Assembly: GCF_004341505.2 (NCBI RefSeq)
Contig: NZ_SLYP02000001.1
Coordinates: forward strand, 1,561,001-1,625,000
Reading direction: 5' to 3'
From: Sphingomonas sp. JUb134
GTDB lineage: Bacteria; Pseudomonadota; Alphaproteobacteria; Sphingomonadales; Sphingomonadaceae
DNA: 64,000 nt
The translations under genes and the position numbers were made by a program. This document shows positions 1 through 18,950 of the stretch, one piece after another; within the stretch, counting starts at the first letter, position 1; each line of letters begins with the position of its first letter. The notes beneath the pieces are model-generated. The model searched no databases. It saw nothing but the letters and a program-made list of their open reading frames with translations, and was not told the origin of the DNA.

Positions 1-972
1 TTTTCGGGCTGCGGCTATGGCATCATCCCTGATGATCTGCCCTTCATAACGCTCGTTGGCTCCAACATTCGCGGAATGCAGTCCGCGCTCGCGCTGCTGA
101 AGGAATGGACCACGCTGTCTGGACCGAACGCGGTCCGCCTTGAGATCGCTTATGATGGGCCGGGCTACGTGCTCGCGATCTCGCAGCAGGTCGATCTCCT
201 GCGCTGGCGCGTTGCCGGCATCGATACGGTTCGCCAGCCGCTGATGATGGTGACGAGCCATATCAAGCGCATGGATTCGCGGCATTGGATGCTCGATCAG
301 CTCGCCGATTATGCCGAGCAGCCGGTAGCGCCTCTGCGGCTGATTGTGGCGGAGATGCCGGAGAGCGTCTCGCGCGGAGGCGGCAGCCGCGACTTCGGCT
401 TCACGCCTAATTGGGATAACGCCATCCTCCTGCCCGGCATTGAAGTCTATCGGCGGCCTGAGGATCGACCGCCTCACACGATGGCGAGAACCGAGGCCGA
501 ATTCGAGGCAAGGACGAAGAATGGTCCGGATCCCGGCTGGCCGCCATCCCCGGAACAGGATCCCGCGAGCGTCGCGAGCGCCCGTGAGCGGCGGCTCGCC
601 GCGTCGATGCCCAAGACGCTCCACGTGCTCCGCAACACTCACCGAGGTGCCGCGTTTCTGGAGCAGGCGTTGGTGCTGCGGTGCGCCCGGTGGCAGGTCG
701 AGCAGGCGATCTGCAATATTCGGTCGGCCGATTTTCTTGCCTATCAGCCAAGCGGTGGACGCAAGCGCCTCGCCATGATCGACGCCGTCCGTCATCGGGT
801 GCTGGAGCCGGCCTCAATGGACGTCGATCTCACCGTCATCTCGAACGACCAGATTAGCGCCCAGATCGGGCTCGACACCGCCTTCCTGTTGCGGCGTCTC
901 GAACCCGACCGTGAGATCGGGGACGCCGTCGCTGAGCGGATCGAGCGCATTCGGGAGCTCGGTTATGGCTGA
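1..972 (+). CDS. Hypothetical protein, 5'-truncated by the window edge
   Basis: The frame is open from base 1, so the true start lies outside the window; the first in-window ATG is at 76. I do not recognise the family. At least 323 residues are visible, with no signal peptide or membrane segment in the visible part, a charged proline-rich linker around the middle and an Arg-rich helical C-terminus. Its stop overlaps the ATG of the next gene by eight bases (ATGGCTGA), which suggests an operon and translational coupling with the DUF4062 gene. Context is a genomic-island cargo region with defence-type genes, so a role there is possible but is inference only. Confidence 0.6.
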   Translation, partial: FSGCGYGIIPDDLPFITLVGSNIRGMQSALALLKEWTTLSGPNAVRLEIAYDGPGYVLAISQQVDLLRWRVAGIDTVRQPLMMVTSHIKRMDSRHWMLDQLADYAEQPVAPLRLIVAEMPESVSRGGGSRDFGFTPNWDNAILLPGIEVYRRPEDRPPHTMARTEAEFEARTKNGPDPGWPPSPEQDPASVASARERRLAASMPKTLHVLRNTHRGAAFLEQALVLRCARWQVEQAICNIRSADFLAYQPSGGRKRLAMIDAVRHRVLEPASMDVDLTVISNDQISAQIGLDTAFLLRRLEPDREIGDAVAERIERIRELGYG

Positions 973-1252
973 CCCGCCCCTGCAGCGGGCGACGGCGGAC
1001 CGCCTGCGGGTCTTCATCAGCTCGACAATCGGCGAGTGCGCGACCGAGCGGGAAGCCGCGCGCGCCGCTATCCGGAGTCTCAACTTCGAGCCTGTGCAGT
1101 TCGAGCGTGAAGGCGCGCGAGCGGATCTGCGCGAGCGGGCTGGACCATATGGTCGTGCGTCATCGCCCCGACGACGATTTGAACCTTGTCCTTCGGCTAG
1201 GCAGCACGCAGCGCCTGCTTTTCACCGTGCGCACCGATGGCAAGAAACCTGA
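965..1252 (+). pseudogene. DUF4062 domain protein, N-terminal remnant
   Basis: The first 50 or so residues match the start of DUF4062 proteins: the signature RVFISSTIGECATEREA at about residues 14-30, then an FEREGARA segment. DUF4062 normally continues into a longer domain, often fused to NTPase or effector modules in defence-type genes. Here the sequence loses similarity after about base 1120 and runs off in a Pro/Arg-rich frame to 1252. A 10-base direct repeat (gcgcgagcgg at 1115-1124 and 1129-1138) lies where the frame is lost, which would fit a deletion through short homology. The frame that looks coding after this point is the one used by the next gene. Confidence 0.6.
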
Positions 1253-1664
1253 ATCCATGTTCGTGGCGCTGGTGATCGGAGCCTTCCTCGACGCCTTTGC
1301 AGATGAGCTTTCGGACATTCTCTCGCCCGACCTGTTGGAAGAGGGTGCCGCGATTGACGTCCATGTCTTCGGCCAGGTAGTCGAAAGCAAGACGGTCGCG
1401 GACTTTTTTCGCGAAGGTCTCAAGGACAAGCCCGTTGCGACCGCCCGGATCATCGCGAAGGAGGGCGAGGAGCCACCCATCGTGGTCTTTGCGCGGAAGG
1501 ATGCGATCGAGGCCCTGACAGCGAGCGAGGAACGGGGTGGGGAACTCGAGATCATGCTAGCGCGCGTCCTTGACGAAGTCATCTTCGTTACCACGGGTCG
1601 TAGCGTCGACGACGAGATTTTCTCCGCGAAGATCAGAGATCTGCTCATCTCAATCCTGCGATAG
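1107..1664 (+). CDS. Hypothetical protein, possibly the 3' part of a broken gene
   Basis: The longest frame is 185 residues from ATG 1107; ATG 1149 is an alternative start. Neither has a convincing ribosome-binding site. The product is acidic and soluble-looking, with a mixed alpha/beta pattern and no signal peptide. I do not recognise it. It overlaps the DUF4062 remnant in another frame, and the good coding character begins just where the DUF4062 frame decays. It is therefore either a separate short gene or the tail of a larger gene joined to the remnant by deletion. Its stop is about 107 bases from the stop of the HEPN gene on the other strand. Confidence 0.45.
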   Translation: MKARERICASGLDHMVVRHRPDDDLNLVLRLGSTQRLLFTVRTDGKKPESMFVALVIGAFLDAFADELSDILSPDLLEEGAAIDVHVFGQVVESKTVADFFREGLKDKPVATARIIAKEGEEPPIVVFARKDAIEALTASEERGGELEIMLARVLDEVIFVTTGRSVDDEIFSAKIRDLLISILR

Positions 1665-1771
1665 CGCGTCACGGCCAAACGGCTCGCCTCAGCCAAATCG
1701 GCGCAGCGCGTGGTCGGTTTGCAGAGGTCATCGGAGCGATGGGTCGAGTTGGCGATGGGCAGGGGCCACGA

Positions 1772-3355
1772 CTACCAGCTGGGGTCGCGCCGCTTTCGTC
1801 TTTCCTCAAGCGCGTATAGAGGCATCGACCCGATCAGCCGGTCCGGCGCCGCTGCGGCTTTGTTGCGCTCCTCGACGCCGATAGCGAGCGCCAGTTGGAT
1901 CAACGCTGCCCTCGCGATCTTCATCATCCGGAGCGCTTTGGCTTCGAGCAGATCGCTGTTGATCGACAGGCCTAAGCCGTTGGACGCGGGCAAGGTGAGC
2001 ATCAGATCCCATGCCCATCCCTCATGGACCTGCAGGTATTTATGCTCGAGCGCGTTGCGGATGTCGTGCAGCTCGCGGGCATCCGCCGCGGTCGTACGCT
2101 TGATCTCGTCATCGAACAGCTCCTTCGACAACCAGTAAAGGCCACGCAGTGGCCAGTTTGGATAGGCTTTGAAGCGGTCTAGCAGGCGCGGCTTGCCCTC
2201 AACCATCCAGACATTCTTGAAATTGATTCGGTCGGCGATCTTGCCGAGCTTCCAGACATGATCGACGAGGAACGCCACCTTGTCGAGCAACGAGTAAGCG
2301 ATGCGGTAGGCGGTGCGAACGCGCTCGGTCGCTAACGAATGCGCCGGATAGTCGAGCGTATCGAATAGCCGTACGCCAAGGTCGGAGAAATGGAGCTTGG
2401 TGCTATTCAGGCCCTCGTACAGCATAAAGCGTGCTGAGGCATATTCCTGCTTCATCTGGTTGAAGAAGCCGAACACCGGCGCCGGAGTGAAGGCGCCGGG
2501 CCGGTCAGCAAACGACTCCATGATCGTCGGCAACACGAGATCGTCGAACGCCGCCACTGTGAAAGCGCCGAGATCATTCAGCGGGTTGAGGAAGAGCCTA
2601 CGGTCTAGGCACCAGCGTCGATAGGCTCGCTCGGCCTTGCTGCGCCCGAGACCGGTGCCGTCGAGATCCTGCAAGGCGCGTATGCGATCCAGATCGGCCG
2701 CCGCGGCATATTCGGCGGCGGTCGCGGCGAACTGCCGCCGCAGGCCGATCTGATCCTCGCCTTCATAAATCGCATCGGGCGCAAGCGCGGCGGCGAAACC
2801 ATCATGTGCGTGTAGCAGGAGGATCGCTCGTTCACGATCATCCTCCAGCAGCCCGGCATAATGTTTGAGGCCGAAGCCGCGGTTCGCCAGCGCCATCGCA
2901 AAATTGGGGACGATTTGCAGCGCCTTGTCCCAGCCCTCGATCGCGTCGACGAAGCGCCCCATGGTGTCGAGTTGATTCGCGCGATTGGTCAGGATCTGGC
3001 AGCAGCGGACGATGTCGAGCTCGGCGAAGCCGGGGTGTGCGGCGGCGCGGGACAGCGCCAAGATCTGCTGTTCCCGCTCGGCATGCTCCCAGTCCCAAGA
3101 ACCGCGCTCACCCGCCAACTCTTCCTTGGCGCTCCAGGCATTCGCGCGAAAATACTCAATGAGAGCACCTTGCCTGGGCGTCAGCTCGCGCTTCGCCAAC
3201 TCGTCGAGCAGATAAAGCGCGCGTTCCACACCGCGCTGGAACTGCGCGTCGAGTGACGTGTCGACTAAGGTCGCGATATGGTCGAGCGCGGCGTCGGCAT
3301 CGAGCTTGGCGATCGAACGCTCGCGTAACTTTTCCATTTCCGCCGTTGTCGGCAT
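1772..3355 (-). CDS. TPR and HEPN domain protein, LA2681-like family
   Basis: A 527-residue protein. ATG 3355 is preferred over an upstream in-frame ATG at 3442 because AAGGGA lies six bases before it. The N-terminal half has TPR-like helices, clearest around GRFVDAIEGWDKAL. The C-terminal part holds an RNALEH hexapeptide near residue 433, the R-x4-H active-site motif of HEPN ribonucleases. The arrangement resembles the LA2681-like HEPN family, which is associated with toxin and defence loci. It lies about 106 bases downstream of the Avs-like gene on the same strand, so cotranscription is likely. RNase activity and a defence role are inferences from the family. The reading frame is intact, unlike its upstream neighbour. 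Confidence 0.7.
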   Translation of the reverse strand: MPTTAEMEKLRERSIAKLDADAALDHIATLVDTSLDAQFQRGVERALYLLDELAKRELTPRQGALIEYFRANAWSAKEELAGERGSWDWEHAEREQQILALSRAAAHPGFAELDIVRCCQILTNRANQLDTMGRFVDAIEGWDKALQIVPNFAMALANRGFGLKHYAGLLEDDRERAILLLHAHDGFAAALAPDAIYEGEDQIGLRRQFAATAAEYAAAADLDRIRALQDLDGTGLGRSKAERAYRRWCLDRRLFLNPLNDLGAFTVAAFDDLVLPTIMESFADRPGAFTPAPVFGFFNQMKQEYASARFMLYEGLNSTKLHFSDLGVRLFDTLDYPAHSLATERVRTAYRIAYSLLDKVAFLVDHVWKLGKIADRINFKNVWMVEGKPRLLDRFKAYPNWPLRGLYWLSKELFDDEIKRTTAADARELHDIRNALEHKYLQVHEGWAWDLMLTLPASNGLGLSINSDLLEAKALRMMKIARAALIQLALAIGVEERNKAAAAPDRLIGSMPLYALEERRKRRDPSW

Positions 3356-3461
3356 ACGTCGTCCCTTCGTCGGCGGTCCGTGTCCAGTGTGATGACCTGG
3401 CATCAGTCGCTCGCGCGGCGCTACGAGCGCCCGCGTCGGCATTTGGGAGGTCGGGTCATCG

Positions 3462-6026
3462 TCAGCGAAGCAGGTCGGGAAGTTCGTAGAGCAGCTTTAG
3501 CGCCTCTGACCAACCAACGTCCGAAAATAGGCGCAGGATCTCGACGAGCGCGGCGCGGCGTGTGTTATCCTCGAAGATCGAGCGGTGGTCGGCGATATAG
3601 CGGGTGATCATCCGTACGATGACCGGCGCGGCAAGGCCTTCGTGATGATAGCCCTCGCGCGCGGCCGGGCCTGTCAGCAGCGCATGGAGCGCGTCGAACA
3701 CGCCGGCCGGATCGCCGGGGATCAGAAACTCGTAGAGTTCGACGAGATGATGGTGTGTCGAAGGTTCGTGTGAGGTCGCCAGCAGAGCGAGCATCGGGCG
3801 ATAATCGACAAGGAACCGGTGTATGGTGTCGGGGGACGTGAGCCCGACCTTCGCCTCGCGATTGTCGGCATGCGCGCCCGAGCCGAAATAGACCTGGTTC
3901 ATCAGGTGGCCGATCACCGATTCCGCCGCCTTGTAGGTGGCGATGGCGGCCTCGCGTTCGGCGCCCTCAACCGTTTCGCCCATGACCGCGGCATGGCTGG
4001 CGTCCGCAGCTGCCGAGCACGCCTCCAGAATGACCATCGCCGCTTGCTGTGAGCGATCAGCAAGCCCCGCATCGCGCTCCTCACCGCTCGCATAGCGGGC
4101 GAAGAAGGCGCCGCGCAGCATCGACAGGAAGGAGGTGGAAAACTCGCGGTGCGCGGCGGGGTCACCGGCCCAAGCCTTGAGCCATTCGAGCGCGATGGCC
4201 TCTTCCTGCCAGCACCAGAGCTGCGCGGTCAGGCCGCCGAGCTGTTCGGCGACCTTGTCGCGGCCGGGCTTGTCATCGCGCTCGACCGCCTCACGGCGGG
4301 CGCGGACGATCTCGATGATCTCCTTGCATTTATCGACGTCCTGCCAGGTGACGCGCGGCACGACATAGTGGAGGAAAGACGCCAGCACTTCGGTGTGCGG
4401 CTCGTCACGCGCCACCTGTTCGGCGAGGTCCCACATCTTTTCCCGTGCGACATGCCATAGCACCAACAAGCGTTGCGCGGCTTGGAGGCGGACCTGGGGC
4501 GCGGGATCGGCGAGCATCACATCGAACTTGCCGACAAGTTCGCCATGCGTTTCGCCGAAGCGCCGGGCGAGTTCGACATAGGCCTGGGCGGCATAGACGC
4601 GGACTTCCCAATTGCCCCAGCTCAGGCTTGAATCCTCGTCCTTCTGCCTGGGTTCGGGGAAGCGGCTGGCCCACAAGCGCTCGAGAATGCCCAGCAACTC
4701 ATCGAGCGACGGCAGACCCTCGGTGCCGGGCACATAAGCGTCGGCATCGACGATGCGCTCGACGGCATTGCTTATATGCCCCCAGACGGGCTGCTCGACC
4801 TTTTCGTGAAGCGCGGCCGCATTGGCGTCGTACATGCCGATCGTCGCGAGCGTTGCCGTCCACAAGGCGCCAAGCGCAGCCGCGTTGCTGGCTGGGGGCG
4901 TCGTCTGCACCAGGTCGTAGAGCGCCTCGGACCGCGACAGCATCTGCGCGTCTACGCCTTCCTCGGTATCGACGCCTTCGCCGGCAAGCAGGCGGCGCGT
5001 GACTCCGCGCGACGATCCCCAGCGGATCGACCCCGAGCGCGTCGGAGGATTGCCGGCCAGCTCGTTCCCCGCGACCAGTTCCTCGCGCAGCGCACGCATG
5101 GGATCGGTCGCGATCGCGTCGGCATCGATCAGCGACAGGAAGCGGCTTAGTGTGCGGCGCCACCAGCGCTGCTCGGCCTCGTCGGTAAACAGATCGGGCC
5201 GCAGCGCTTCGGCCTCGAATGCCGCCCGCTCGGAACGCGGCCGCGACGGATAGACCGCGGCCAGAAGGCGGACCGCGTCGCGGACGATGTCGCCATGGGC
5301 CAGGATCGTGATGTTGCATGCGAACGGCCACAGCAGGTCTGCGACCTCGCCAACGCGCTCGGCGCCGACGCCGAGGATCCGCGTCCATACTGCCGGCCCG
5401 GCATAGCCGGTCGCCGCCGCACCGACCGTCTCGGCAAAGGCGGCGGGCGAGCAGTCGCGCAGATGCGCGACCAACTGCGCGAGCACATCGTCGTCCTGCG
5501 TGCCGTGACGTTCTTCGGTGTCGTCCCAGGCTCTATACTCATGATCGTGGCCGAGCAGGTCGAACGGCGCGCGGCCCGGCACGACGACTTGTTCGCGATC
5601 GTCGCCCAAGGGCATCGCGCGATTGGTGTCACCGAGCGATGCCTCGACGATCGCGCGCGTGCCGAGTGGCACCGACAACTCAAGGAGGCGCGTGACCCGC
5701 CGGCCCAGATTGTAGCGGCAGTGACGGTAATCCTGGCTGCGGTTGGACGAGAGTGGCATGATCCGGCTCGCCTGCCCGCCCATGAACGAGGTGCTGTTAT
5801 CGGTGATGTCGCGCGAGAAAAGGACGCTGTAGATCTCGATCGCGAAATCGGCGTCGGCCCGCGCGATCGGCATGATCTGCTCGGAAAGCCAGGTCGCTTC
5901 CTTGTCGGCACGGGCTGAGAAATGCGGATCGCGCAGCATGCGGTCGAGCAGCGCGCGAGATGCGGCGGGATCGGACGCGAAGCTCTTGCCGACGAAGCGG
6001 ATGGCATTGGTCGCGGTCTGCTGCAT
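3462..6026 (-). CDS. C-terminal part of frameshifted nuclease-STAND NTPase (helical repeat sensor region)
   Basis: An 854-residue frame rich in Ala/Leu/Arg helices, read here as a HEAT/TPR-like repeat region, with no catalytic motif that I recognise. It probably did not evolve as a separate gene: it continues the protein encoded at 6030-8395. If one C is restored to the C-tract just before its ATG (complement of ggg at 6027-6029), the upstream frame reads on as S-H-P-M-Q-Q-T without interruption. The two frames are co-open only from 6027 to 6098. In Avs-type STAND proteins the C-terminal repeats recognise phage proteins, and by analogy this would be the sensor. An ATG without a clear ribosome-binding site leaves independent translation doubtful. 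Confidence 0.6.
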   Translation of the reverse strand: MQQTATNAIRFVGKSFASDPAASRALLDRMLRDPHFSARADKEATWLSEQIMPIARADADFAIEIYSVLFSRDITDNSTSFMGGQASRIMPLSSNRSQDYRHCRYNLGRRVTRLLELSVPLGTRAIVEASLGDTNRAMPLGDDREQVVVPGRAPFDLLGHDHEYRAWDDTEERHGTQDDDVLAQLVAHLRDCSPAAFAETVGAAATGYAGPAVWTRILGVGAERVGEVADLLWPFACNITILAHGDIVRDAVRLLAAVYPSRPRSERAAFEAEALRPDLFTDEAEQRWWRRTLSRFLSLIDADAIATDPMRALREELVAGNELAGNPPTRSGSIRWGSSRGVTRRLLAGEGVDTEEGVDAQMLSRSEALYDLVQTTPPASNAAALGALWTATLATIGMYDANAAALHEKVEQPVWGHISNAVERIVDADAYVPGTEGLPSLDELLGILERLWASRFPEPRQKDEDSSLSWGNWEVRVYAAQAYVELARRFGETHGELVGKFDVMLADPAPQVRLQAAQRLLVLWHVAREKMWDLAEQVARDEPHTEVLASFLHYVVPRVTWQDVDKCKEIIEIVRARREAVERDDKPGRDKVAEQLGGLTAQLWCWQEEAIALEWLKAWAGDPAAHREFSTSFLSMLRGAFFARYASGEERDAGLADRSQQAAMVILEACSAAADASHAAVMGETVEGAEREAAIATYKAAESVIGHLMNQVYFGSGAHADNREAKVGLTSPDTIHRFLVDYRPMLALLATSHEPSTHHHLVELYEFLIPGDPAGVFDALHALLTGPAAREGYHHEGLAAPVIVRMITRYIADHRSIFEDNTRRAALVEILRLFSDVGWSEALKLLYELPDLLR

Positions 6027-6029
6027 GGG

Positions 6030-8395
6030 TGGCTCGGTGGCCAGGCAAAGGCTAGCAGCGCCCGTGCCGCGCGGCCAAAGACATCGAGCAGCTCCGCCTC
6101 AGCAAGGTCACCCTTGTCGAATAGTGTGTGGAGCAGGAACCGCGTCGCGTCTGAAAGGTCGCGCGAACCGGTCGCGATCGCTGCATCGGCGACCCGTGCC
6201 CAAGCGACCGCCTCGCTCGCCACAACGCTGCCGGCTGTGTCGACCGCAAGCCCGACAAAGCGGGCCAGTCGCGAAAGCATCGTCGCCAGCGCTTCCTCAC
6301 TCGGGCGGGCTGCAATCAATGCGACCAAGCCCGCGATGTCGGCGGACGTTGCAACGCGCTCGATCGCGGTGCGCAGCGCGACATTGGCAAGCACTGGATC
6401 GACCGCCGGGTCAGCGTAGATATCGGCGACGAGCTGCCAGAGCTGCGCCTTGCCGTCGGTGTCCTGGCGCCATAGCCGCTCGATCGCGAAGCGCAGCGCC
6501 GGCGCCAGCATCAGCGCAATCGAGCTGTCGCCGCCGAGCTGGCCAATCAGTCGGACCGGGTCATCCCATTCGAGGAAGAAACGACCGGCGACATGGTCGA
6601 ACAGAACATGATGAGCAAAGCTGACAAGATCGCCGGATTCCGTCAGAACGCCAGTCTGAATCACTGCGTCAAGCTGACTATGTTCGACCACGACCTTGCG
6701 TACCGCGAGCCTGCGCCGGGTCACCATCGCGCCGACCGTCATTGCCGTCGCCTGATGTAGGGCAGTGCCAGTGAGCCGGAGATCCTCATAGGCATCGATG
6801 AGGTCGGACTGCGTGGCAACCGTGCGGATGCTGTCGGGGCTGGCGCCATCGGCGAGCAATTGCGCGGCGAGCGAGAGGTTAAAGACGTTACGCAGCAGGT
6901 CGCGCAACTTGCCGGGCACGGCGGCGACCAAACTGCCGAGATCTGCTGCAGCGGCACCCGCAGTGTCGAGATCTTTGTCTGCCAGCCGCGGCACCTGAAA
7001 ATGCCGTACATTCGCCAAACCTGCCTCGGCGAAGGCCGGATCGGGCGGCGATCCCGGCATGGCGTCGCGGAACCGTCGCCCATTGCGCAGATCGAAGGTG
7101 CGGATTGACGCAATGACGGTCCAGTTCGTGCCAGACGCACTAAGGGTTTCGATCAGCTGCGCGAACACGCCTTCAGCCGGACCACCGCGCGCGGCATCGA
7201 GCGCATCGATGATGATCAGCTTGGCGCCTGAACCCGGCGCAGCATCCAGCACTTCGACCAGCGGGTGCTCCAGCCCCAGCTCGGACTGGAGATTTGCAGC
7301 GATGGCAACACCGGGGAAGCGGTCCACCGAGAGGAACACAACCGTATCGCCGGCCGCGCGGCGCGCCTCGGCGAGTGCGACCAGGGCACCGGTCTTGCCC
7401 GCGCCAGGTTCGCCGATGACGATGAGCGAGCCGGAATCAACCGCTGCGCTAAGGGGGCTATCGCTTACTCGCGCGATAGGTATGCCGCCGGCGATCGGCA
7501 GGCGCCTATGACCGGCGAGACGGTTTAGCTCGGCGCCAGTCGCCTCCGACAATCGCCCGAGATCGGCGGTATAGTCAGCCGCGCCCACGTCATTATGGCC
7601 GAGCCGGCGAAGCTCGCGCAGCAATCCGGCGCGATCCGCGGGCGCGCCGCTGCCGATCATGCCGCGGATAATGCCCTTCAGGTCGCGCAGCGGCGCCTCG
7701 CCGGCGGTTTCTGAACCGTAGAGCCTCACGGCGAGCAGCCGCGATGCCTCACGCCAATTGTCCTCGCCCTCGTTCATCGAGAAACGCGAGACGCGGAACA
7801 CGCGTGCCATCATTACCAGATCATCGTCGGTCGGTGGCGGCGCGGACATCGACGCCAATGCGGTTCGGGCGTGTGCCTCAAACAGATCGAGCGCCTCTCG
7901 CTCCTCCTTCGATCGTCCCGCCTTAGTGGTACTCCAGTGGCCACCCAGGTCGAAGGCACGGCAGCCGCGTTCGAGCGCATCGAGCGTGCGCGGCGCGTCC
8001 CCCGCGACAGCCAGTACCGCACGCGCCTTCTTTGAATCGATCTCGACGCCGGCACTGCGTGCATCGACCATCAGCCGTGCAAGTTGACCGATGGTTTTGC
8101 CAAGCGGGCTCTTGGCGCTCTTTGCGAGGCCAGCACTAGTCTTGCTCTGCAGGTCGATGCGGCTGGCATCGTCCTGGTCCAGCCGGATGTCGTCGAGCCC
8201 GTCGCCGGTTTCGAGCTGGATCGTCGTCGGCAACGCCACATTGGCGAGACCGAAGTGTCCGCCTACCGGCATGCGCGCCAGCAGATGGGCGGCAAGCCAG
8301 GTCCCGACCTCGGCCTGGAAGGCCATCCCGGCTTCCGTCGCCCGCCCACCGGCGTTCATTCTAGATGTCGGTGGAGTTTCGCTAGCCAATTGCAT
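6030..8395 (-). CDS. N-terminal part of frameshifted Avs-like protein: DUF4297/Cap4-like nuclease plus STAND-type NTPase
   Basis: About 780 residues. Residues 20-110 resemble a PD-(D/E)xK nuclease of the DUF4297/Cap4 kind, with GDGLDDI near residue 68 and IDLQSKTS near 82 (acidic residue, then Q-x-K). A P-loop GEPGAGKT lies near residue 325 and a Walker B KLIIIDALDA near 394, followed by helical sequence. The order nuclease-NTPase-helical repeats is that of Avs antiviral STAND proteins. ATG 8395 touches its ribosome-binding sequence AGGGAG; TTG 8389 is better spaced (six bases) and may be the real start. The frame stays open to 5147 but becomes Arg/Ser/Pro-rich after about 6030, which marks the frameshift into the downstream part. 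Confidence 0.65.
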
Positions 8396-8623
8396 CTCCC
8401 TAAAGACATGGCGTCGAAGATATTGTTGGAACTGACAACATCCGCAACGTTGTTGACTGCGGAGGGTCAGGGTTGCCACCTCCGACCGCATTGGCTGCCA
8501 CTTTGACGCCGCGCCAGTTTCCGCCGCACCGCGTTATCTGAATGGACGTCTGCTTTCGGGAGGCAGGCGCTCGGCCCGGCACTTCGTCTATCGGGTATTT
8601 TCGCCCCCGCAAGGTGGCAGCCG

Positions 8624-9453
8624 CTACGGGAAGCTAGCCTGATAGCTGGTCGCCATGAGCGACACATGCGCCTCCAGCGGCGGCCGCAACTCGAATGCCT
8701 TTGGCTCCCGCGCAAAATTCCACAATCGCACTAGCCGCCAATCACTGCGTCGCTCCTCCGCAACGGCCAACTCATTGCGCGTGATGTGAAACGGCGTCCG
8801 CTCCCAACCATTGGTCGTCTTCACCTCGATCAGACGATCGCTGCCGTCGGTGTCGAAGCTACGGATGTCATAGCCGGCACCGTCGCCATCGACATGCGAC
8901 ACCCAGCGGATGCGCTCGGCGAGATCGGTCCGGCCGGCGGCGAGCAGGCTGGCACGCTCATGAGCGAGGACCCGCTCTTCGCCGGCGCGACCTAGAGCGC
9001 GATTGCGGGCATCGCGCTCCGCCACGTCGTACTTCCGCGCGATGAAGGTCATCTGCTCGAGCTCGTCGGGCGGCGGCGCATTGCTGTGCGTGGGTGGCGG
9101 CCCGATCCACAGCATTGCTTCCTCCCGGAGCGCTGACGGCGACGGACCCATCGCCATCCGCGCGGCCGGTGCGAGCCAATCTGGATAACGCTGGAGCCAG
9201 CGCACCACAGCGAGGCCTGAAAATTGAAAGCCGGCTTGTAGCCCGGGATCCAGTCCTCACCGAGCCCCTTGAGCACGGCGCTGATGTTCTGATTCTTATA
9301 TTCGATCGAGCCGCGCGGGCGATCGATCAACGCTTGCAGCAGACGGTTGTGCTCGGCCTTGCTGTAGGGCTGCCCAGCGATGTCGTCGCCAAGCATCGCG
9401 AAATAGTCCGCCACGATCGCGTCATTCTGCTCGTTGGACCAGTCACCGGCCAT
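8624..9453 (-). pseudogene. DUF3883 domain protein (nuclease-like), single-base frameshift
   Basis: Two frames make one protein of about 276 residues. The first (9453 to about 9211) begins MAGDWSNEQNDAIVADYF. The second (from GTG 9208 to 8624) continues at VVRWLQRYPDWL. Adding one base in the GTGG run near 9208-9211 joins them as F-Q-A-S-L-V-V-R-W. The C-terminal third is a DUF3883 domain, with AGYDIRSF and RLIEVKTT resembling the D...E-x-K core of the PD-(D/E)xK fold. DUF3883 domains occur in defence and restriction-linked proteins. It is on the same strand as the Avs-like gene and about 230 bases upstream of it. The substrate is unknown and the frameshift probably inactivates it. Confidence 0.65.
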
Positions 9454-9495
9454 GGCGGCTCCCGAGCGGGTGAGCCAAGCTGGAGAAGGCCCGGA

Positions 9496-9920
9496 TCATG
9501 CCAGTAACTGCGCCGGCACACCGAGCGCCGGGCCTGCCTCGGCGAGCCGCTGGTCGAGCGTATGCACTGTGGCGCCATGCTCCGACGCAATCGCTAGGTG
9601 CAACGCGTCACCGGCGCGAAGCCCCAATGTGTGCTGATCGGCAAACCTCGCCGCCGCCCGGAACTGCCCGCCCGTCACGGGCAGCACCGTGAAGCTCTCG
9701 GCGACGAGCTTGTTAAACATGGCGAGTGCTGCCGCGCGCTGCTCCAGGTTGATCTGCCCGGTCCGCAGCTTGATCGCCATGGCGGAAGACGTCTCGGTGA
9801 CGGTCCAGTCGCTGATCAAAAGCTGGGCTGGATCCTGCTCGGCCAGCCAGGCCTGAACACGCGGCGTCATAGCTTCGTTGGAGAGCGCCGCGACGATCAG
9901 CGACGTATCGAGATACTCCA

Positions 9921-9921
<1 letters not shown>
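9496..9921 (-). CDS. vapC: VapC-type PIN-domain toxin
   Basis: A 141-residue PIN-domain protein, the usual VapC size. Acidic active-site residues are visible: D5 in MEYLDTS, the E in TVTETSSA, D in GDALHLA and D in HTLDQRL. VapC toxins are Mg-dependent ribonucleases that cleave tRNA or rRNA and are held inactive by the cognate antitoxin. Its ATG shares one base with the stop of the antitoxin gene (TGATG), so the pair is translationally coupled. The frame is intact although neighbouring cargo genes are broken. The RNA target cannot be read from the sequence. Confidence 0.88.
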
Positions 9922-11415
<1,494 letters not shown>

Positions 11416-11470
11416 CAATGATCTGAGCGGTGCGTAGTGCCAGAAATTCGTGTATATTTCTGACATCGTT

Positions 11471-11616
11471 ATGCAGCGACTGACCGACCAGATCATGGCC
11501 GATGTGGAAGGCCTGCCCGAGGGCACCGGCGTGTCCGCCAAGGCTCTGCTACATTTTGGAAATCGAGCGGCGGTGGATCAGGCGCTGTCCAGTCTTGCTC
11601 GACGCAATTGCTTGGT
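11471..11616 (+). pseudogene. DUF6088 (AbiEi-like) antitoxin, truncated by IS21-family insertion
   Basis: The 49 codons from ATG 11471 match the start of DUF6088/AbiEi-like proteins, notably LPEGTGVSAKALLHFGNRA and VDQALSSLARRN. These are winged-helix antitoxins of type IV toxin-antitoxin systems. The match stops at the left inverted repeat of the insertion sequence (11617), and the frame then runs through IS sequence to a stop ending at 11692. No ribosome-binding site is seen. The rest of the gene and any AbiEii-type toxin partner are absent beyond the other IS end, so the insertion was probably accompanied by a deletion. Confidence 0.65.
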
Positions 11617-11683
11617 TGTCAACGGCGGAGCAAAACCAGGCCAGCGGGGCGGAGTAAAAGCAGGCCACTTGAGGCGCGCGCTG

Positions 11684-11725
11684 ACGATATGAAAAGGGCC
11701 CCGATCGGGGCCCTTTTCATATCGT
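11684..11725. terminator. Perfect 42-base palindrome, bidirectional terminator
   Basis: The sequence is a full palindrome centred on gatc, with A4-G3-C4 and its complement in the arms, so it ends in a T-run on both strands. It lies 21 bases after the istB stop and inside the IS left end. It would end istB transcription and could also insulate the element from reading through the cut DUF6088 gene. Confidence 0.75.
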
Positions 11726-11745
11726 TGCCGTCCTCGGCCTGATGG

Positions 11746-12597
11746 TCAGGAAGATAATATCTCACCGGTGTCCGGGTCGGACAGGGCACTGGCCTGGTTT
11801 TGCTCCGCCCCGCGACGTTTGCGTCCGGTGGACTGCTTGAGGCGATAGCTGTCGCCGTTCATGGTCAGGATGGTGGCATGGTGGGTGAGCCGGTCGAGCA
11901 GTGCGCCGGTCAGCCGCTCGGAGGCGAGCACCTGCGTCCAGTCCTCGAACGGCAGGTTGGAGGTGATGATGGTCGAGCCGCGCTCGTAGCGCTGCGACAG
12001 CACCTCGAAGAGCAGTTCGGCGCCGGTCGGGGACAACGGGACGTAGCCGAGTTCATCGACGACGAGCAGCTTCACGGCCGCCATCTCGCGTTGGAGCTTG
12101 AGCAGCCGTCGCTCGTCTCGCGCCTCCATCAACTGGTTCACCAGCGAGGCCGCGGTAGTGAAGGCGACTGTGAAGCCCTTCTGGCAAGCCGCCAGGCCGA
12201 GCGCGAGGGCTACATGCGTCTTGCCTGTCCCGCTGTTGCCGAGCGCAATGACGTTCTCGCGGCGCAGGATATATTCGCACCGTGCGAGCTCGACCACCAT
12301 CATCTTGTTCAGGCTGGGGATGGCGGTGAACTCGAAGGTGTCGAAGCTCTTCACAGCCGGGAAACGGGCTGCGCGGATCCGTCGTTCGATGGTCCGGCGC
12401 TCGCGGTCGATGAGCTCCAACTCGATAAGCCGCAACAGGTAGCGCGTGTGGTCGACCCCGCCTTGCGCGCATTCGCGCGCGACCTTTTCGTACTCGCGCA
12501 GAACGGTTGGCAGTTTGAGTTGTTTGAGATGATGGGCGAGCAGCACCTGTGGCGTACCTGCGGTCGTGCCCACCGGCATGGCGTCCTTGTCCGTCAT
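11746..12597 (-). CDS. istB: IS21-family helper ATPase IstB
   Basis: A 283-residue AAA+ ATPase of normal IstB length. The Walker A is ALGNSGTGKTH (about residue 110) and the Walker B is KLLVVDELGY, followed by the SNLPFEDW segment typical of the family. IstB assembles on target DNA and stimulates the IstA transposase. ATG 12597 overlaps the istA stop as ATGA, which indicates translational coupling; the upstream in-frame codon at 12627 lies within istA and is not needed. The gene is intact. Confidence 0.9.
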   Translation of the reverse strand: MTDKDAMPVGTTAGTPQVLLAHHLKQLKLPTVLREYEKVARECAQGGVDHTRYLLRLIELELIDRERRTIERRIRAARFPAVKSFDTFEFTAIPSLNKMMVVELARCEYILRRENVIALGNSGTGKTHVALALGLAACQKGFTVAFTTAASLVNQLMEARDERRLLKLQREMAAVKLLVVDELGYVPLSPTGAELLFEVLSQRYERGSTIITSNLPFEDWTQVLASERLTGALLDRLTHHATILTMNGDSYRLKQSTGRKRRGAEQNQASALSDPDTGEILSS

Positions 12598-14081
12598 GCT
12601 GCCAGCACCGCATAGTCGGCCGCGCACGTCGTTTTGACGTCCATCTTGGGCACGTGCGGATACGCCGCTAAATCCAGGCGCGGCGGACGGCGCTCGATAC
12701 GCGCCAGCGCGATGAGTTTTACCGCGTCAAAACCAGGTGCGCCCAACTGGACTGCCTCGGTCACGGCATCCGTGACGATGGGAAGCGGCATCGCCTCGAG
12801 CAGCCGCAGCACCTGGATGAACTCGCGTTTACCCTTGTTGCCCATCCGGGCCTCGAGCAGGTGGCGCAGATGCTGGAAGATGTCCGGCAGGTTCCAGTCC
12901 TGAAGGGCTGCCGCCTGGTCGAGCGCACCGGGCTTGGTCTCGATGAGCGCGAGATAGTGCAGTGGGTTGGAGACGAATACGCCTTCGTCGTAGCAACGCG
13001 CGTGCCGGGCAATCTCTTCGCCCGCGCATATGATGACGACCTCGTCGACGAACCCCTTCACCATCACGTCGCGGTAGCCGTACGCGGTCGGCACCGAATA
13101 GTCGTTGGTCCGGTAGCGCACCATCGCGGTCGACGACACGCGCGCCGCGCGTTTCTCGCATGGCTCCAGTGGTACGGACGGCAGCGTGCGCAATGCCGAT
13201 ACGTCTGCCGCCAGCCGCTCGGCAATGGTCTGCGCGTGCTGACCGGCATGCTCGCCCTGGCGCGTACGGCAGGACTCCTCGAACCTGGCGTTCAGGACAT
13301 CGAAATTGGCAGCGACCGGCACGGGCACCATGAAGTTGTTGCGCGCAAACTTCACCAGCCCCTCGACCTTGCCTTTGTCGTTGCCTCGCGCTGGACGCGC
13401 AAAACGGTCCTGAAACAGGTAGTGGCTGACCAACTCGGTGAAGGCGCGTGTGCGCTCGCGCGTTCCATCGCCGCAGATCTTTGCCACGGCGATGGTTGTG
13501 TTGTCGTAGAGGATGGACAGCGGCACGCCCCCGAAGAACGCGAATGCCGACACGTGCCCGTCAAGAAACGCCTCGGTCGTCTCGCGCGGATACGCCTTGA
13601 AGAAGCAGGCATCCGACTGCGGCAGCGACATGCAGAAATAGTGGATCTTCATCCGCTCCCCGCCGACGACCGCGACCGCCTCGCCAAAGTCGACCTGTGC
13701 ATGCCCCGGCGGGTGCGCCAGCGGCACGAAGGTCTCGCGCCCGCGGGCCCTGCACAGCCGCACATGGTCCTTCACCATCGTGTAGCCGCCCGTATAGCCA
13801 TGCTCGTCGCGCAGCCGCTCAAAGATCCGCTTGGCCGTGTGCTGCTGCTTGCCCGGCGCCTCGCGGTCGGCTGCCAGGATTGCGTCGATAACCGGTAGCA
13901 GCGTCCCGAGCTTCGGCTTGGTCGGAGGTTTCGTCCGGCGGTATCCAGGAGGCGCCGAATACAGGCACATCTTGCGTACCGTATCCCGGTTCAGCCCGAA
14001 CACCTCCGCCGCTTCCCGGCGACTATGCCCCTCGACAAATACAAACCGTCTGACCGCTGCGTAGCTCTCCACGACAAACAT
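12594..14081 (-). CDS. istA: IS21-family transposase IstA
   Basis: A 495-residue DDE transposase. An N-terminal HTH region (GHSRREAAEVFGLNRDTVRK) precedes an rve integrase core. The DDE triad can be read as D in QVDFGEA, D in ILYDNTT and E in DKGKVEGLVKF. The start was taken at ATG 14081 (MFVVESYAAV) rather than a GTG/ATG further out near the terminal repeat. It acts with IstB to move the element by cut-and-paste or circle formation. Complete and apparently functional. Confidence 0.9.
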   Translation of the reverse strand: MFVVESYAAVRRFVFVEGHSRREAAEVFGLNRDTVRKMCLYSAPPGYRRTKPPTKPKLGTLLPVIDAILAADREAPGKQQHTAKRIFERLRDEHGYTGGYTMVKDHVRLCRARGRETFVPLAHPPGHAQVDFGEAVAVVGGERMKIHYFCMSLPQSDACFFKAYPRETTEAFLDGHVSAFAFFGGVPLSILYDNTTIAVAKICGDGTRERTRAFTELVSHYLFQDRFARPARGNDKGKVEGLVKFARNNFMVPVPVAANFDVLNARFEESCRTRQGEHAGQHAQTIAERLAADVSALRTLPSVPLEPCEKRAARVSSTAMVRYRTNDYSVPTAYGYRDVMVKGFVDEVVIICAGEEIARHARCYDEGVFVSNPLHYLALIETKPGALDQAAALQDWNLPDIFQHLRHLLEARMGNKGKREFIQVLRLLEAMPLPIVTDAVTEAVQLGAPGFDAVKLIALARIERRPPRLDLAAYPHVPKMDVKTTCAADYAVLAA

Positions 14082-14189
14082 CCCCGCCGCTCCGCAAAGG
14101 GAGCAGCTTACCAACTGGCCGGATTTTACTCCGCCCCCGACGGCACTGCGCCGGCGGTCCTGTGGCCTGGTTTGTCACCGCCCTTCACA

Positions 14190-14264
14190 CCCCACAGGGT
14201 CTCTATCGTCGTCCTCCTGATACGGCATCATCAAGACGCGCACGCGGCTTGGCTTCTTGGTCAT
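14190..14264 (-). pseudogene. 5' end of an unidentified gene cut by the IS21 element
   Basis: ATG 14264 is preceded by a strong GGAGGATTA ribosome-binding site and opens MTKKPSRVRVLMMPYQEDDD, a plausible protein start, but the frame meets the IS right end after 25 codons. The remainder of the gene is missing on the other side of the element. The product cannot be identified from so short a piece. Confidence 0.4.
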
Positions 14265-14267
14265 GTT

Positions 14268-14290
14268 AATCCTCCGATAGTTGGAGGATT
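14268..14290 (-). promoter_or_regulatory. Inverted repeat overlapping the ribosome-binding site of the cut gene
   Basis: AATCCTCC-gatagtt-GGAGGATT forms a perfect 8-base stem with a 7-base loop. One arm contains the ribosome-binding site of the ATG at 14264. It could be an operator or an RNA hairpin hiding the ribosome-binding site. Its original gene is destroyed, so it is now only a relic. Confidence 0.35.
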
Positions 14291-14556
14291 TCTGATGGTG
14301 GCCAGACCTTGCCCGTTCGCGTAGGCGCTGGATTCTGCCGACGCTGACGGTATTTTTAGCCGCGATCTGGGCTCGGGTGTCAGAGCTGGAATGGTGCGCA
14401 AAGAGCCAATAGTAGTCGATAGATGGCTTGCGAAGGTTGGTGGAAATTCCTCAACGATATCAGCAGCGTAGGTTTCTGACGGGCCCTGAGCCGGTAGTAC
14501 TTGAGCGCAGAAATATTTTCTCCAATTATTTCATGTGGTTGATATGGACCAAAACA
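14291..14556. other. AT-richer island end, no gene called
   Basis: No complete gene is supported here. All three minus frames contain short protein-like stretches broken by stops, for example ISALKYYRLRARQKP near the right end and TRAQIAAKNTVSVGRIQRL nearer the left. This suggests a decayed minus-strand gene, perhaps a DNA-binding protein. The base composition is visibly less GC-rich than the chromosome that begins after 14571. Confidence 0.35.
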
Positions 14557-14571
14557 ATCGAGTGGGAATGA
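14557..14571 (+). other. Putative island attachment site: duplicated guaA 3' end
   Basis: ATCGAGTGGGAATGA encodes I-E-W-E-stop, the conserved C-terminus of GMP synthase, in the orientation expected for guaA reading left to right. The bases before it are not guaA coding sequence, so this is a detached copy of the gene end. The 3' end of guaA is a known chromosomal integration site for genomic islands, whose insertion duplicates the core site. This would be the distal att site, with guaA itself beyond the left edge of the window. Base composition changes here. Confidence 0.6.
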
Positions 14572-14600
14572 TCCCCGGCTCGCGCTAAGCGACCCGCATC

Positions 14601-14633
14601 CGTCCGGCGCACTCCACCCGAGTGCGCCGGACG
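14601..14633. terminator. Strong hairpin terminator
   Basis: A 13-14 base-pair stem (cgtccggcgcact and its complement) with a short ccacc-type loop lies 16 bases after the sugar dehydrogenase stop. It lies 30 bases from the guaA-end copy and may originally have served both guaA and the convergent dehydrogenase gene. Confidence 0.7.
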
Positions 14634-14648
14634 TTGCGTTTGGGGATG

Positions 14649-16007
14649 TTACGTCCCGCTAGGGCCGCCGGAGCCGGCAGCGGGAGCCCCGCCGGCATGG
14701 CTGATCCGCCACACCGTGTTGCCGACGTCGTCCGCCACCAGCAGCGCGCCGGTGCGATCGACCGCAACGCCCACCGGCCGGCCGCGTGCCTTGCCGTCCT
14801 TCAGGAAGCCGGTGACGAAATCCTGCGGCATGCCGGTCGGCCGGCCGCCCTGGAAGCGGATGAACGCCACCTTGTAGCCATGCGGGTCGCTGCGGTTCCA
14901 GCTGCCATGCTCGCCCACGAAGGCCCCGCCCTGATAGGCCGCAGGGAAGCTCGCGCCGGTGTAGAAGGCGAGCCCGAGCGGCGCGACATGCGATCCCAGC
15001 GAGTAATCCGGGGAGATCGCCTTTGCGACCAGTTCGGGCCGCTGCGGCCGCACCCGCGGATCCACATGCTGCCCGTAATAGCTGTACGGCCAGCCATAGA
15101 AGCCGCCCGGCTGCACCGACGTCATATAGTCGGGCACCAGGTCGGGGCCCAACTCGTCACGTTCGTTGATGACGGCCCACAGCGTGTTCGATCCGGGATA
15201 GAAGGTGAGCCCGTTGGGATTGCGCAGCCCGCTGGCATATACCTTCAGCAGGCCCGTCGCCGGATCGACCTCCAGGATCGCCGCCCGGTCGCGTTCGGCC
15301 TCTTCGCCGCGCTCCATCGCGTTGCTGTTCGATCCGATGCCCACGTACAGGCGGGACCCGTCCGGGCTCGCCGTCAGGCTCTTGGTCCAATGGTGGTTGA
15401 TCGGCCCCGCCGGCAGGTCGGCCACCTTCACGCCGGGCGCGGTGATCCGCGTCTGGCCGGGCACGAAGGGATAGCGCACGATCGCATCGGTGTTCGCGAC
15501 ATACAGGTCGCTTCCGATCACCGCCACGCCGAAGGGCGCGTTCAGCTTGTCGACCAGCACCGATCGCCCGTCCGGCCGGCCGTCGCCGTTGGTGTCGCGC
15601 ACCAGGGTGATGCGGTTACTCGGCGGCGGGGCTTCGCCGCTCTTCGCCTGGCCATGCGCCATCGACATGATCCAGTCGCGGATGGGGTCCTTCGGCCGCT
15701 GGACCGGCTCGCCGCCTTCCTTCTTCGATTCCACGATCAGCACGTCGCCGTTCGGCAGCGCCAGCACGTTGCGCGGGTTGGCGAGCCCGGTTGCGATCGC
15801 CTCGATGCGGAACCCGGCCGGCACGGTCGGGGTCTCGCCCGCCTTCCAGCCCACGACCTTGTAGACGCCCACGTCGGAGATCAGCGCCTCCTTCGGCTCG
15901 GGCAGGAGAGGGTTCGGCCCATATTGCGCGTTGGGGTCGATCTTCTGGCCGCCTCCGCAGCCGGCAAGGGCGGAAACGGCGAGCAGGGCTGCCAGGCTGC
16001 GCTTCAT
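14649..16007 (-). CDS. PQQ-dependent sugar dehydrogenase-like lipoprotein
   Basis: A 452-residue protein. ATG 16007 opens a lipoprotein signal MKRSLAALLAVSALAGCGGG, with the lipobox cysteine at residue 17. The rest is a six-bladed beta-propeller of the glucose/sorbosone dehydrogenase type, with blade motifs such as GLANPRNVLALPNGDVL, LRNPNGLTFYPGSNTLW and VAPLGLAFYTG. Such enzymes oxidise aldoses or sorbosone in the periplasm with PQQ or a similar quinone. The substrate cannot be told from sequence. Its ATG shares a base with the stop of the upstream membrane protein gene (TGATG), so the two form an operon. A frame that extends upstream is only the shadow of that gene. Confidence 0.85.
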   Translation of the reverse strand: MKRSLAALLAVSALAGCGGGQKIDPNAQYGPNPLLPEPKEALISDVGVYKVVGWKAGETPTVPAGFRIEAIATGLANPRNVLALPNGDVLIVESKKEGGEPVQRPKDPIRDWIMSMAHGQAKSGEAPPPSNRITLVRDTNGDGRPDGRSVLVDKLNAPFGVAVIGSDLYVANTDAIVRYPFVPGQTRITAPGVKVADLPAGPINHHWTKSLTASPDGSRLYVGIGSNSNAMERGEEAERDRAAILEVDPATGLLKVYASGLRNPNGLTFYPGSNTLWAVINERDELGPDLVPDYMTSVQPGGFYGWPYSYYGQHVDPRVRPQRPELVAKAISPDYSLGSHVAPLGLAFYTGASFPAAYQGGAFVGEHGSWNRSDPHGYKVAFIRFQGGRPTGMPQDFVTGFLKDGKARGRPVGVAVDRTGALLVADDVGNTVWRISHAGGAPAAGSGGPSGT

Positions 16008-16456
16008 CACAGGTCTCCCCCCACGCGGCGATTGGCGGATTGCCAGAACCACCCGGCCAGCAGCGCGAGCACGACGGCCAGGATCGACAGCATCAGCCCG
16101 GTCGGCACCACCGCCGTCCATCCGTCGCGCGTGTGGACGAAGGAGTTGAACACCTCCACCACCCAGGCGGCGAGGAACAGCAGCGCATGCGCCGCCCACG
16201 CGCCCGTGCGCCGCGCGCGCCTGCGGACCGTCTCCACGATCAGCACCACCCCGGCGACCCCGCCCACGACCAGGCCCGTCAGCAACAGCCAGCTGGAGAA
16301 GTTGAGCCACATCATGTCGGGTGCGCGGGAATAGGCGATGTCGGTGATCAGCGCGCCGACGAAGCAAGTGATCGAAGCCGGGAGCAGCGCGGAATAGATC
16401 CGGTGGCCGAGGACGCCGGGTGGCCGTCGATCGGCGTGCGCGATGCTCTCGGCCAT
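16007..16456 (-). CDS. DUF2231-type four-helix membrane protein
   Basis: A 149-residue protein with four predicted membrane helices (around ALLPASITCFVGALI, SWLLLTGLVVGGVAGVVL, AAHALLFLAAWVVEVF and MLSILAVVLALLAGWFW), typical of DUF2231. ATG 16456 is preferred because AAGGA lies seven bases upstream; ATG 16462 is too close to it. It is translationally coupled to the downstream sugar dehydrogenase, so it may anchor the enzyme or pass electrons from it; that role is an inference from the pairing. Confidence 0.75.
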   Translation of the reverse strand: MAESIAHADRRPPGVLGHRIYSALLPASITCFVGALITDIAYSRAPDMMWLNFSSWLLLTGLVVGGVAGVVLIVETVRRRARRTGAWAAHALLFLAAWVVEVFNSFVHTRDGWTAVVPTGLMLSILAVVLALLAGWFWQSANRRVGGDL

Positions 16457-16635
16457 AGGCATGTCCTTCCCTGTGTCTGGGGGGACTACGACCGGAGGGG
16501 AAGGGAGTTCCCGCGCGGGCGTCACGCGCGCGCGAAGCTGCCCAAAACGCTGTCTGGTCGATGAATGTCGCGGACGGGCTTCGTTCAGGCCGGCGCGCTT
16601 AGCTTCTCCCCATCGAGATTGTGAAGGAGAGGACC

Positions 16636-16932
16636 ATGCGTACGCTGATCATCCTGGCCACTGTGGCCGCTGCGGCATTCACCCCGGCCGCCGCATCCGC
16701 CCAGCGCTACGGCTACAACCACGAAGTCCGGCGCGAAGTGCAGGAATGCCGCCGCGAGCTGCGCCGTGCCGACAGCCGCCGCGAGTATCGCCGCGAACAG
16801 CGCGAGTGCCGCCGCGAAATCGCAGACGCACGCCGCGACGGCCGCCGCGACTGGCGCCACGATCGCCGCGACTGGCGAGACGATCGCGGCCACTATGGCT
16901 GGCGCGACCGTCAGTACGGCAGCCGCTGGTAA
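16636..16932 (+). CDS. Small secreted Arg/Asp-rich protein
   Basis: A 98-residue protein with a clear Sec signal peptide (MRTLIILATVAAAAFTPAAASAQ). The mature part is almost wholly made of RRE/RRD/RRDWR-type units, a highly charged periplasmic or exported peptide. ATG 16636 follows AAGGAGAGG by a few bases; a GTG at 16621 is less likely. Function unknown; small charged proteins of this kind are common in sphingomonads. A strong terminator follows. Confidence 0.75.
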   Translation: MRTLIILATVAAAAFTPAAASAQRYGYNHEVRREVQECRRELRRADSRREYRREQRECRREIADARRDGRRDWRHDRRDWRDDRGHYGWRDRQYGSRW

Positions 16933-16940
16933 GCGATCGA

Positions 16941-16970
16941 CGCCGGGCAGGGGCCACCCCTTGCCCGGCG
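16941..16970 (+). terminator. Hairpin terminator after the Arg-rich gene
   Basis: CGCCGGGCA pairs with TGCCCGGCG, and an inner GGGG pairs with CCCC around a cca loop. It starts nine bases after the stop codon. There is no long T-run, as is frequent in high-GC genomes. Confidence 0.6.
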
Positions 16971-17046
16971 CGAACGTTCCTGCCGATCCCGGCACCCGAA
17001 CCAAGCCGCCGCCCCGGCGTTGGTCTCCTGCAACGGGAGCAGGCTA

Positions 17047-18369: not shown

Positions 18370-18463
18370 AAGGACGACCGCTAAGAGTCGGAACCGCACC
18401 GCCGGAGTGGCGCGGGGTCGCGCACGGTGCCTATGATGGCCCGCACCTGTCCGGGAGATCCCA

Positions 18464-18907
18464 ATGCGCTTCCTGCTCGCCGCCTGTCTTGCCGCTGCGG
18501 CAATCGCCAGTCCTGCCGCCATGCGTCCGGCGATCGCCCAGTCCGCGGCACTCGATCCGAAGACCGCGGTCTACGAGTTGCGCATCTATTACCCCGCGCC
18601 CGGCAAGCTCGCCGGCCTCAACGCCCGCTTCCGCGAGCATACGCTCAAGCTCTTCGCCAAGCACGGCATGCACAACGTCGCCTATTGGAACGAGCAGCCC
18701 ACGGCGGAAGCCCCCGAGGGGCGGGTCGTCTACGTGCTCGCCTATCCGAGCCGGGAGGCGCGGGAGGCGAGCTGGAAGGCGTTCGGCGCCGATCCGGAAT
18801 GGCGTGCGGTGGTCGCGACCTCCGAAGCCGACGGCAAGCTGGTGACGAAGATCGACAGCGTCTTCATGACTCTGGCCGACTATTCCCCGCGCCTCCCGCT
18901 CCGCTGA
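18464..18907 (+). CDS. NIPSNAP family protein, secreted
   Basis: A 147-residue protein with a Sec signal peptide (cleavage near AIAQS). The mature part begins VYELRIYYPAPGKLAGLNARF, the typical NIPSNAP ferredoxin-like barrel start, and continues with an HTLKLFAKHGM helix and a VVYVLAYPS strand. NIPSNAP domains are small dimeric alpha/beta barrels without a firmly known activity. The gene has its own upstream region and ends in a terminator shared with metE. Confidence 0.8.
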   Translation: MRFLLAACLAAAAIASPAAMRPAIAQSAALDPKTAVYELRIYYPAPGKLAGLNARFREHTLKLFAKHGMHNVAYWNEQPTAEAPEGRVVYVLAYPSREAREASWKAFGADPEWRAVVATSEADGKLVTKIDSVFMTLADYSPRLPLR

Positions 18908-18920
18908 GCCGAGGCGGGGA

Positions 18921-18950
18921 GGCTGCGTGCCGCCGATCCGGCACGCAGCC
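18921..18950. terminator. Bidirectional terminator between convergent genes
   Basis: ggctgcgtgcc pairs perfectly with ggcacgcagcc (11 bp) around an eight-base loop. It sits between the ends of the NIPSNAP gene and metE. Confidence 0.7.

Follow-up and report, generated by a model that had tools for sequence, protein, structure and literature searches.

The M54A gene and its frame break

The window, by which we mean the whole stretch of 64,000 nucleotides (64 kb) analysed here, contains near its start two minus-strand reading frames that are the halves of one protein. The N-terminal piece (6027..8491) holds a nuclease-like domain, a P-loop NTPase, a winged-helix-like region and a first helical segment, while the C-terminal piece (3462..6026) is helical and HEAT-like, and is the putative sensor. 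Against the PADLOC profile for PDC-M54A (PDLC04702, 1621 positions), the N piece covers positions 3-779 (6027-8395, E 6.4e-187) and the C piece covers positions 785-1621 (E 4.5e-182), the two being contiguous at the break.

The nearest relative among the GTDB loci is L021, from Acetobacteraceae bacterium KSS12, where M54A is a single gene of 1676 aa counted from its first start. In a tblastn search with this intact protein, residues 1-825 fall in one frame (8491-6017, 95.5% identity) and residues 818-1676 in the other (6041-3465). In a codon-usage scan the reading frame shifts at about 6053, beyond which the N frame meets no stop for another 908 nt; the scan is coarse, is confined to the 64-kb window and missed another break described below, and is hence not decisive. 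The tblastn result, the profile coverage and the scan nevertheless agree, and bear out the initial annotation in its view that one gene has been split into two frames. The N piece has its first in-frame start at 8491, and the conserved region of its relatives begins with M-N-A-G-G at 8359; the start first proposed, at 8395, is thus one of three candidates.

The break falls at approximately residue 821 of L021, within a region that we delimit as 6017..6053 on the minus strand. The one-base slip previously noted is real in the sequence, but it aligns near 6040 against L021, some 12 nt away from the C-tract at 6027-6029 in which it had been placed. The joint had been reconstructed as S-H-P-M-Q-Q-T, where L021 reads A-T-E-P-P-M-Q-Q-T. 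Nor are the two frames open together only between 6027 and 6098, as had been thought: the N frame runs on to 5147, about 290 codons beyond the break, and the C frame can be traced back to about 6098 (878 codons), giving a common open stretch of about 950 nt. There is no stop-start overlap at the break, and an ATG at 6026 opens the C piece.

With an overlap of this length, slippage might in principle produce one fused protein, and a phase-variable tract had also been suggested. Homopolymers are no longer than 3 nt in 6000-6080 and no longer than 5 nt across the whole gene, and because no run at the site exceeds 3 nt, phase variation is unlikely. The slip moreover lies off the C-tract, and the relatives listed encode the region in one frame. 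We regard it as extremely improbable that a programmed frameshift or phase variation at this site yields the full protein. The relatives in question number 227, drawn from the best 120 of 469 and the best 120 of 316 proteins. All 227 cross residues 770-870, and each of them ends more than 40 residues away from the window break; the searches excluded proteins shorter than 0.55 of the query length, and very short fragments would be missed. Among these relatives, the break appears to be particular to the copy in the window.

The surrounding cassette and its other lesions

The similarity to L021 extends well beyond M54A. Window positions 1123-11390 are 95.0% identical to L021 over 10,281 nt, and positions 1-1125 are 98.8% identical. 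A MAFFT alignment of 10,280 columns contains 497 mismatches and five indels, of which three are intergenic, the fourth lies in M54A and the fifth, 10 nt long, in the neighbouring NOV_C gene (BLAST, which places gaps differently, opens 11 gaps over the cassette). The NOV_C gene, also recognised as PDC-S36 (8624..9471, minus strand), is broken into two frames that meet at about 9208-9247, at the 10-nt gap relative to L021. The PDC-S36 profile matches the window gene only from position 90, and the L021 copy over positions 4-279 of 280. On the plus strand, 821..1661 is the remnant of a DUF4062-ATPase-TPR gene, retaining only residues 2-103 and 1025-1203 of the 1203 in L021, with 2.76 kb missing. 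The complete gene in L021 (15732-19343, 1203 aa) has no PADLOC match at 1e-5, and is possibly an uncatalogued defence gene.

Other genes of the cassette are undamaged. A TPR protein with an LA2681-like HEPN domain (1772..3442, minus strand; PF18733, E 7.6e-68) is intact and lies 19 nt downstream of M54A. All 556 of its residues align to its counterpart in L021 (13955-15625) with 98% identity, and the 19-nt gap is the same in both. In the part of the source consulted, the LA2681-like HEPN family is listed as fused to TPR (PMC3710099). This protein is a possible operon partner of M54A and a possible RNase toxin partner. We also considered it as a required, defining partner of M54A, and rejected this, as it adjoins M54A only in the window and in L021 (blastp, 1e-8). 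PIN toxin-like and Phd/YefM antitoxin-like genes, both with open frames, lie at 9496..10250 (minus strand), and an IS21-like insertion sequence adjoins the cassette (11746..14114, minus strand), identified from its ORFs, the larger of which has a Mu-transpos_C_2 domain; the smaller is presumably IstB. The NOV_C gene, the toxin-antitoxin genes and the genes at 10234-11415 differ from L021 by 7-12%, which points to a mosaic history.

Taken alone, the one-base slip in M54A could be an assembly error, leaving the gene itself intact. It is a single slip, the assembly consists of four contigs from an unknown read type, and the C half has not visibly drifted: relative to L021, dN/dS is 0.20 for the N half, 0.18 for the C half and 0.11 for the HEPN gene. 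The undrifted C half would fit a recent break as well as an assembly error. On the other side, the same cassette carries larger lesions, of 10 nt and 2.76 kb, and the runs at the site are short. The M54A break is also the only same-strand frame change in the window that leaves its upstream frame open for more than 230 nt in the (coarse) codon-usage scan; at the eight others, one of which is a known deletion, the upstream frame stays open for 90-230 nt. An assembly error is on balance unlikely. Because three lesions of different kinds occur in one cassette, we favour real decay over sequencing error, and read the region as a probable decaying defence island. Elsewhere in the window, the scan records frame changes at 42602 and 45053 with upstream frames open for 220-230 nt, which may be overlapping genes or more breaks.

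Relatives and the natural two-gene form

Intact orthologues, which the initial annotation had proposed to look for, exist: 15 of the 24 GTDB loci have one intact M54A gene of 1632-1676 aa. These represent 13 distinct proteins, those of L018, L019 and L027 being identical. Five loci (L022, L025, L028, L030 and L035) have a two-gene form, and in the other four (L023, L031, L032 and L036) the gene is broken or fragmentary or lies close to the end of its contig. Since most loci are intact and both pieces have a dN/dS of about 0.2, the earlier suggestion of a recent inactivation is probable. In the Nitratireductor locus (L031, 8899-12446), M54A is broken too, with a frame change near residue 857 and a match that stops near residue 1181.

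M54A is, as far as these searches reach, rare and patchily distributed. A single copy was found in the genome of the window. Six of 385 class-level genomes match M54A, strongly only in this same genome, and 60 genomes of the same genus gave nothing beyond a partial match (best E 5.7e-9). That match, at 1501-2217 of L003 (genome G030), is a distant relative of the N-terminal region, in a frame with a weak P-loop/NACHT match. PLSDB yielded one plasmid by megablast, from Gemmobacter fulvus (78.9%), and no M54A relative was found in phage and viral collections, where part of the search used generic patterns.

Some relatives are shorter than the intact genes. A class of 1336-1338 aa includes seven proteins that start at L021 residue 339-341, and Bradyrhizobium pachyrhizi has both a 1621-aa protein (P0082) and a 1337-aa protein (P0102) from source contigs of equal size; the class is probably explained by internal start calls. 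A 920-aa protein of Tistrella mobilis (P0099), 99% identical to L021, starts at L021 residue 757 and is incomplete or start-shifted.

The two-gene form consists of proteins of about 1255 and 388 aa, and its boundary, read directly in the five loci, is fixed. In all five, the end of gene A corresponds to L021 residue 1281-1286, and the start of gene B to residue 1289. The stop and start codons overlap, as ATGA in L022, L025 and L030 and as GTGA in L035; in L028 the B frame at its longest begins further upstream, and an in-frame ATG overlaps the A stop in the same way. The system in L022 occupies 8992-13922. Converted to the window, the boundary corresponds approximately to 4628..4636 on the minus strand, where the C piece is uninterrupted.

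Searches with the separate genes suggest that this form is widespread. Among the best 120 of 316 relatives of the L022 A protein, 94 are 1225-1290 aa long, 21 are 1600-1680 aa and 5 have other lengths, and 93 of the 94 A-length relatives listed reach within 20 residues of the end of L022 A. With gene B as the query, 114 of the best 120 of 175 proteins are 375-400 aa long, fused proteins being too long to qualify as candidates in that search. The A and B genes probably lie together beyond the five loci read directly, because 42 of the 94 A clusters match the contig of a B cluster exactly in size, against 0.35 expected after jittering.

The split and fused forms are interspersed. On a FastTree tree of 132 rows (99 split and 33 fused, by length class) there are 15 label changes, 13 of them on well-supported branches; five odd-length proteins were left out, the program flagged long branches, and rows of metagenomic origin may contain errors. 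An IQ-TREE tree of 60 rows requires three changes for the five split loci. Within a mostly split group, the fused proteins P0116, P0118, P0119, P0120 and P0156 still have a methionine where the two parts join, which is what a relic start would look like. The direction of change stays ambiguous, because L026, which lies outside that group, also has the joint methionine and most fused proteins lack one. Two further proteins, P0078 and P0083 (84-86% identical to L021), have a break close to the natural joint. We put forward tentatively, at a little less than even confidence, that M54A is an immune receptor whose last 388 or so residues, the HEAT-like arm, are in a large group of relatives a separate, translationally coupled sensor subunit, and that fused and split forms interconvert repeatedly at this one joint. 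If so, M54A would be a natural split receptor with a sensor subunit exchangeable between systems.

The existence of this form raises the question of whether the split in the window is functional, the halves being made separately and then assembling as in the two-gene relatives. The ATG that opens the C piece, and a dN/dS near 0.2 in both halves, are in keeping with this, although dN/dS may mostly reflect the time before the break. Orthologues encoded as two genes had been named in advance as evidence against a frameshift, and some relatives are indeed so encoded. Their boundary lies at residues 1281-1286/1289, not at about 821, and for this reason they fail to explain the window break, at which all of the relatives listed are continuous. 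The window also has no stop-start overlap at its break, and its N frame extends far past it. A functional split is therefore very unlikely.

Predicted domains, proposed mechanism and known systems

The N-terminal region has a predicted PD-(D/E)xK-like nuclease domain (7901..8359, minus strand, limits approximate) with the motif E..DD..QxK at 8141-8212. Acidic residues followed by QxK are the pattern of PD-(D/E)xK nucleases, and E62, D68, D69, Q83 and K85 are invariant among the 210 listed proteins that have residues at these positions, the other 17 of the 227 being gapped. Pfam searches with 15 members gave no nuclease family match in this region, and the PDB profile search gave no credible one. 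The motif suggests a nuclease, and because no nuclease family matched, the assignment is made at the level of the motif.

The P-loop NTPase is certain. Its Walker A motif, GEPGAGKT (7391..7414, minus strand), contains K334, present in 220 of 220 listed proteins with a letter there, and a Walker B-like motif, IIIDALDA (7193..7216, minus strand), contains D397 and D400, present in 222 of 222, as is R432. Further on, the motif HHVLFDH (6593..6613, minus strand) has H595, D600 and H601 in all 224 listed proteins that are ungapped there, H596 being kept in 223 of them; we take it to resemble a STAND winged-helix motif. STAND families match M54A in Pfam below threshold. The best HEAT-repeat match is at about 4440..4598 on the minus strand (profile A4 positions 477-529 against PP2A PR65 chains, E 2.3e-4), and a Pfam HEAT match in the C half (E 0.0023) falls below the Pfam cut-off. 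In general, the PDB profile search matched the C region to HEAT scaffolds, and its matches to the N region were weak and consisted mostly of P-loop proteins. The P-loop, the Walker B-like motif and the helical C-terminus described in the initial annotation are thus all present. We consider the NTPase to be probably of STAND type, and the whole suggests a nuclease-like start, a STAND-like NTPase and a HEAT-like arm. The layout of M54A would be the effector-NTPase-sensor plan of STAND defence proteins. Avs1-4 are described, in the part of the source consulted, as having nuclease effectors, with terminase, portal or another phage protein as the trigger (PMC12931631).

The gene neighbourhoods give some indication of function. 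One or two chosen neighbours were compared with PADLOC models in each of 13 loci, without a background control, and six loci gave a match: Avs2 (L022), Avs1b-like (L026), SduA (L018), RmrA (L015), PDC-S36 (L021) and M54B (L024), the last being M54A's own partner model. The Avs2 gene of L022 (4035-8636) is full-length and adjoins the two-gene M54A system on the opposite strand, and the neighbour in L026 (2419-8484) is a 2021-aa protein distantly similar to Avs1b (E 1.9e-21). Alternatively, M54A may be a cellular NTPase regulator and not a defence protein, which is compatible with the break. Seven of the 13 loci gave no PADLOC match among the chosen neighbours, our literature search found no mention of 'PDC-M54' and no work, experimental or other, on the M54A family, and PDC denotes a PADLOC candidate, proposed by guilt-by-embedding and yet to be validated, as far as the source consulted in part describes it (PMC10855318). 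Set against this are the patchy distribution, the plasmid copies, the defence-model neighbours and the several broken copies, and we consider a cellular role improbable.

The explanation that we favour for the family assignment, the motifs, the frame break, the intact relatives and the other lesions, with moderate confidence, is that the gene encodes a PDC-M54A defence protein, probably of STAND type, split by a one-base slip in a decaying cassette, and that this copy is probably inactive. In an intact protein, the C-terminal HEAT-like arm would bind a phage product, the NTPase would then assemble the protein into an oligomer, and the clustered N-terminal PD-(D/E)xK-like domains would cleave DNA and so halt the infection, probably with the death of the cell. 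In the window, the slip would cut off the greater part of the helical arm from the NTPase and nuclease, within a cassette that appears to have spread horizontally and contains at least two other broken genes. The inactivation looks real, and of an ordinary kind, in a defence gene that is little known and probably of STAND type, and the window would show how such a gene dies within a decaying defence island. A catalogued candidate family thereby gains a layout of domains and a mechanism that can be tested. The recurrent split point makes the division between the switch and the presumed sensor directly testable, and the recurrent split between the NTPase core and the terminal arm is the part most worth following.

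In comparison with known systems, both pieces match PDC-M54A of PADLOC-DB 2.0.0 from end to end, and the window copy differs in being broken and in having no M54B partner that we could find. PADLOC models gave no M54B match in the neighbours at 1772-3442 and 8624-9208, and phmmer with the M54B protein of L024, run against ORFs of 70 aa or more in window positions 1-20000 and the 24 loci, found only itself. That gene (L024, 13110-14726), the only PDC-M54B that sequence searches of the 24 loci turned up, overlaps the end of M54A.

The N-terminus had been likened to Cap4/DUF4297. The acidic residues and QxK of M54A resemble those of PD-(D/E)xK enzymes, and a nuclease-like start is supported at the level of the motif, but PF14130 is absent from the Pfam matches of the 15 members. 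M54A did not align with a Cap4 profile of three sequences, a set so small that the comparison is uninformative. EruA, a NACHT antiphage protein (NF058535), has a P-loop NTPase in common with M54A, and differs in that the match covers only 32 residues and scores 19.6 bits, where the cut-off is 1000.

The suggestion of a new Avs lineage is not supported, as the protein fits PDC-M54A far better than Avs2 (E 6.4e-187 against E 0.0032), and L022 has an Avs2 beside its M54A. Neither the Avs models nor the profile searches revealed full-length similarity between M54A and an Avs type. Avs1 and Avs3-Avs5 have a similar three-part plan, as Avs proteins are described in the part of the source consulted (PMC12931631); their models match neither piece at E<=1, so that they are set apart by sequence-against-model search, and no PDB chain matched at E<=1 is named Avs. 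The Avs2 model matches the N piece only around the P-loop, and the NCBIfam Avs2 model reaches E 0.13 in one of 15 M54A members. Searched with the M54A profile, seven Avs2 sequences gave E-values of 0.0013 to 0.33 and the Avs1b-like protein 0.0014, compared with 0.0031 for an IS21 ATPase and 0.5-0.6 for RpoB and EF-Tu as controls. Because single Avs2 sequences do no better than the IS21 ATPase, the link to STAND proteins rests on a six-protein Avs2 profile together with the motifs. Outside the NTPase and the stretch that follows it, the two profiles do not align, their nuclease regions included. Avs2 is nevertheless similar to M54A in size and plan, and its profile aligns with a 54-member M54A profile over positions 308-562, which take in the NTPase and what follows it (E 3.2e-5, with a probability of 73%).
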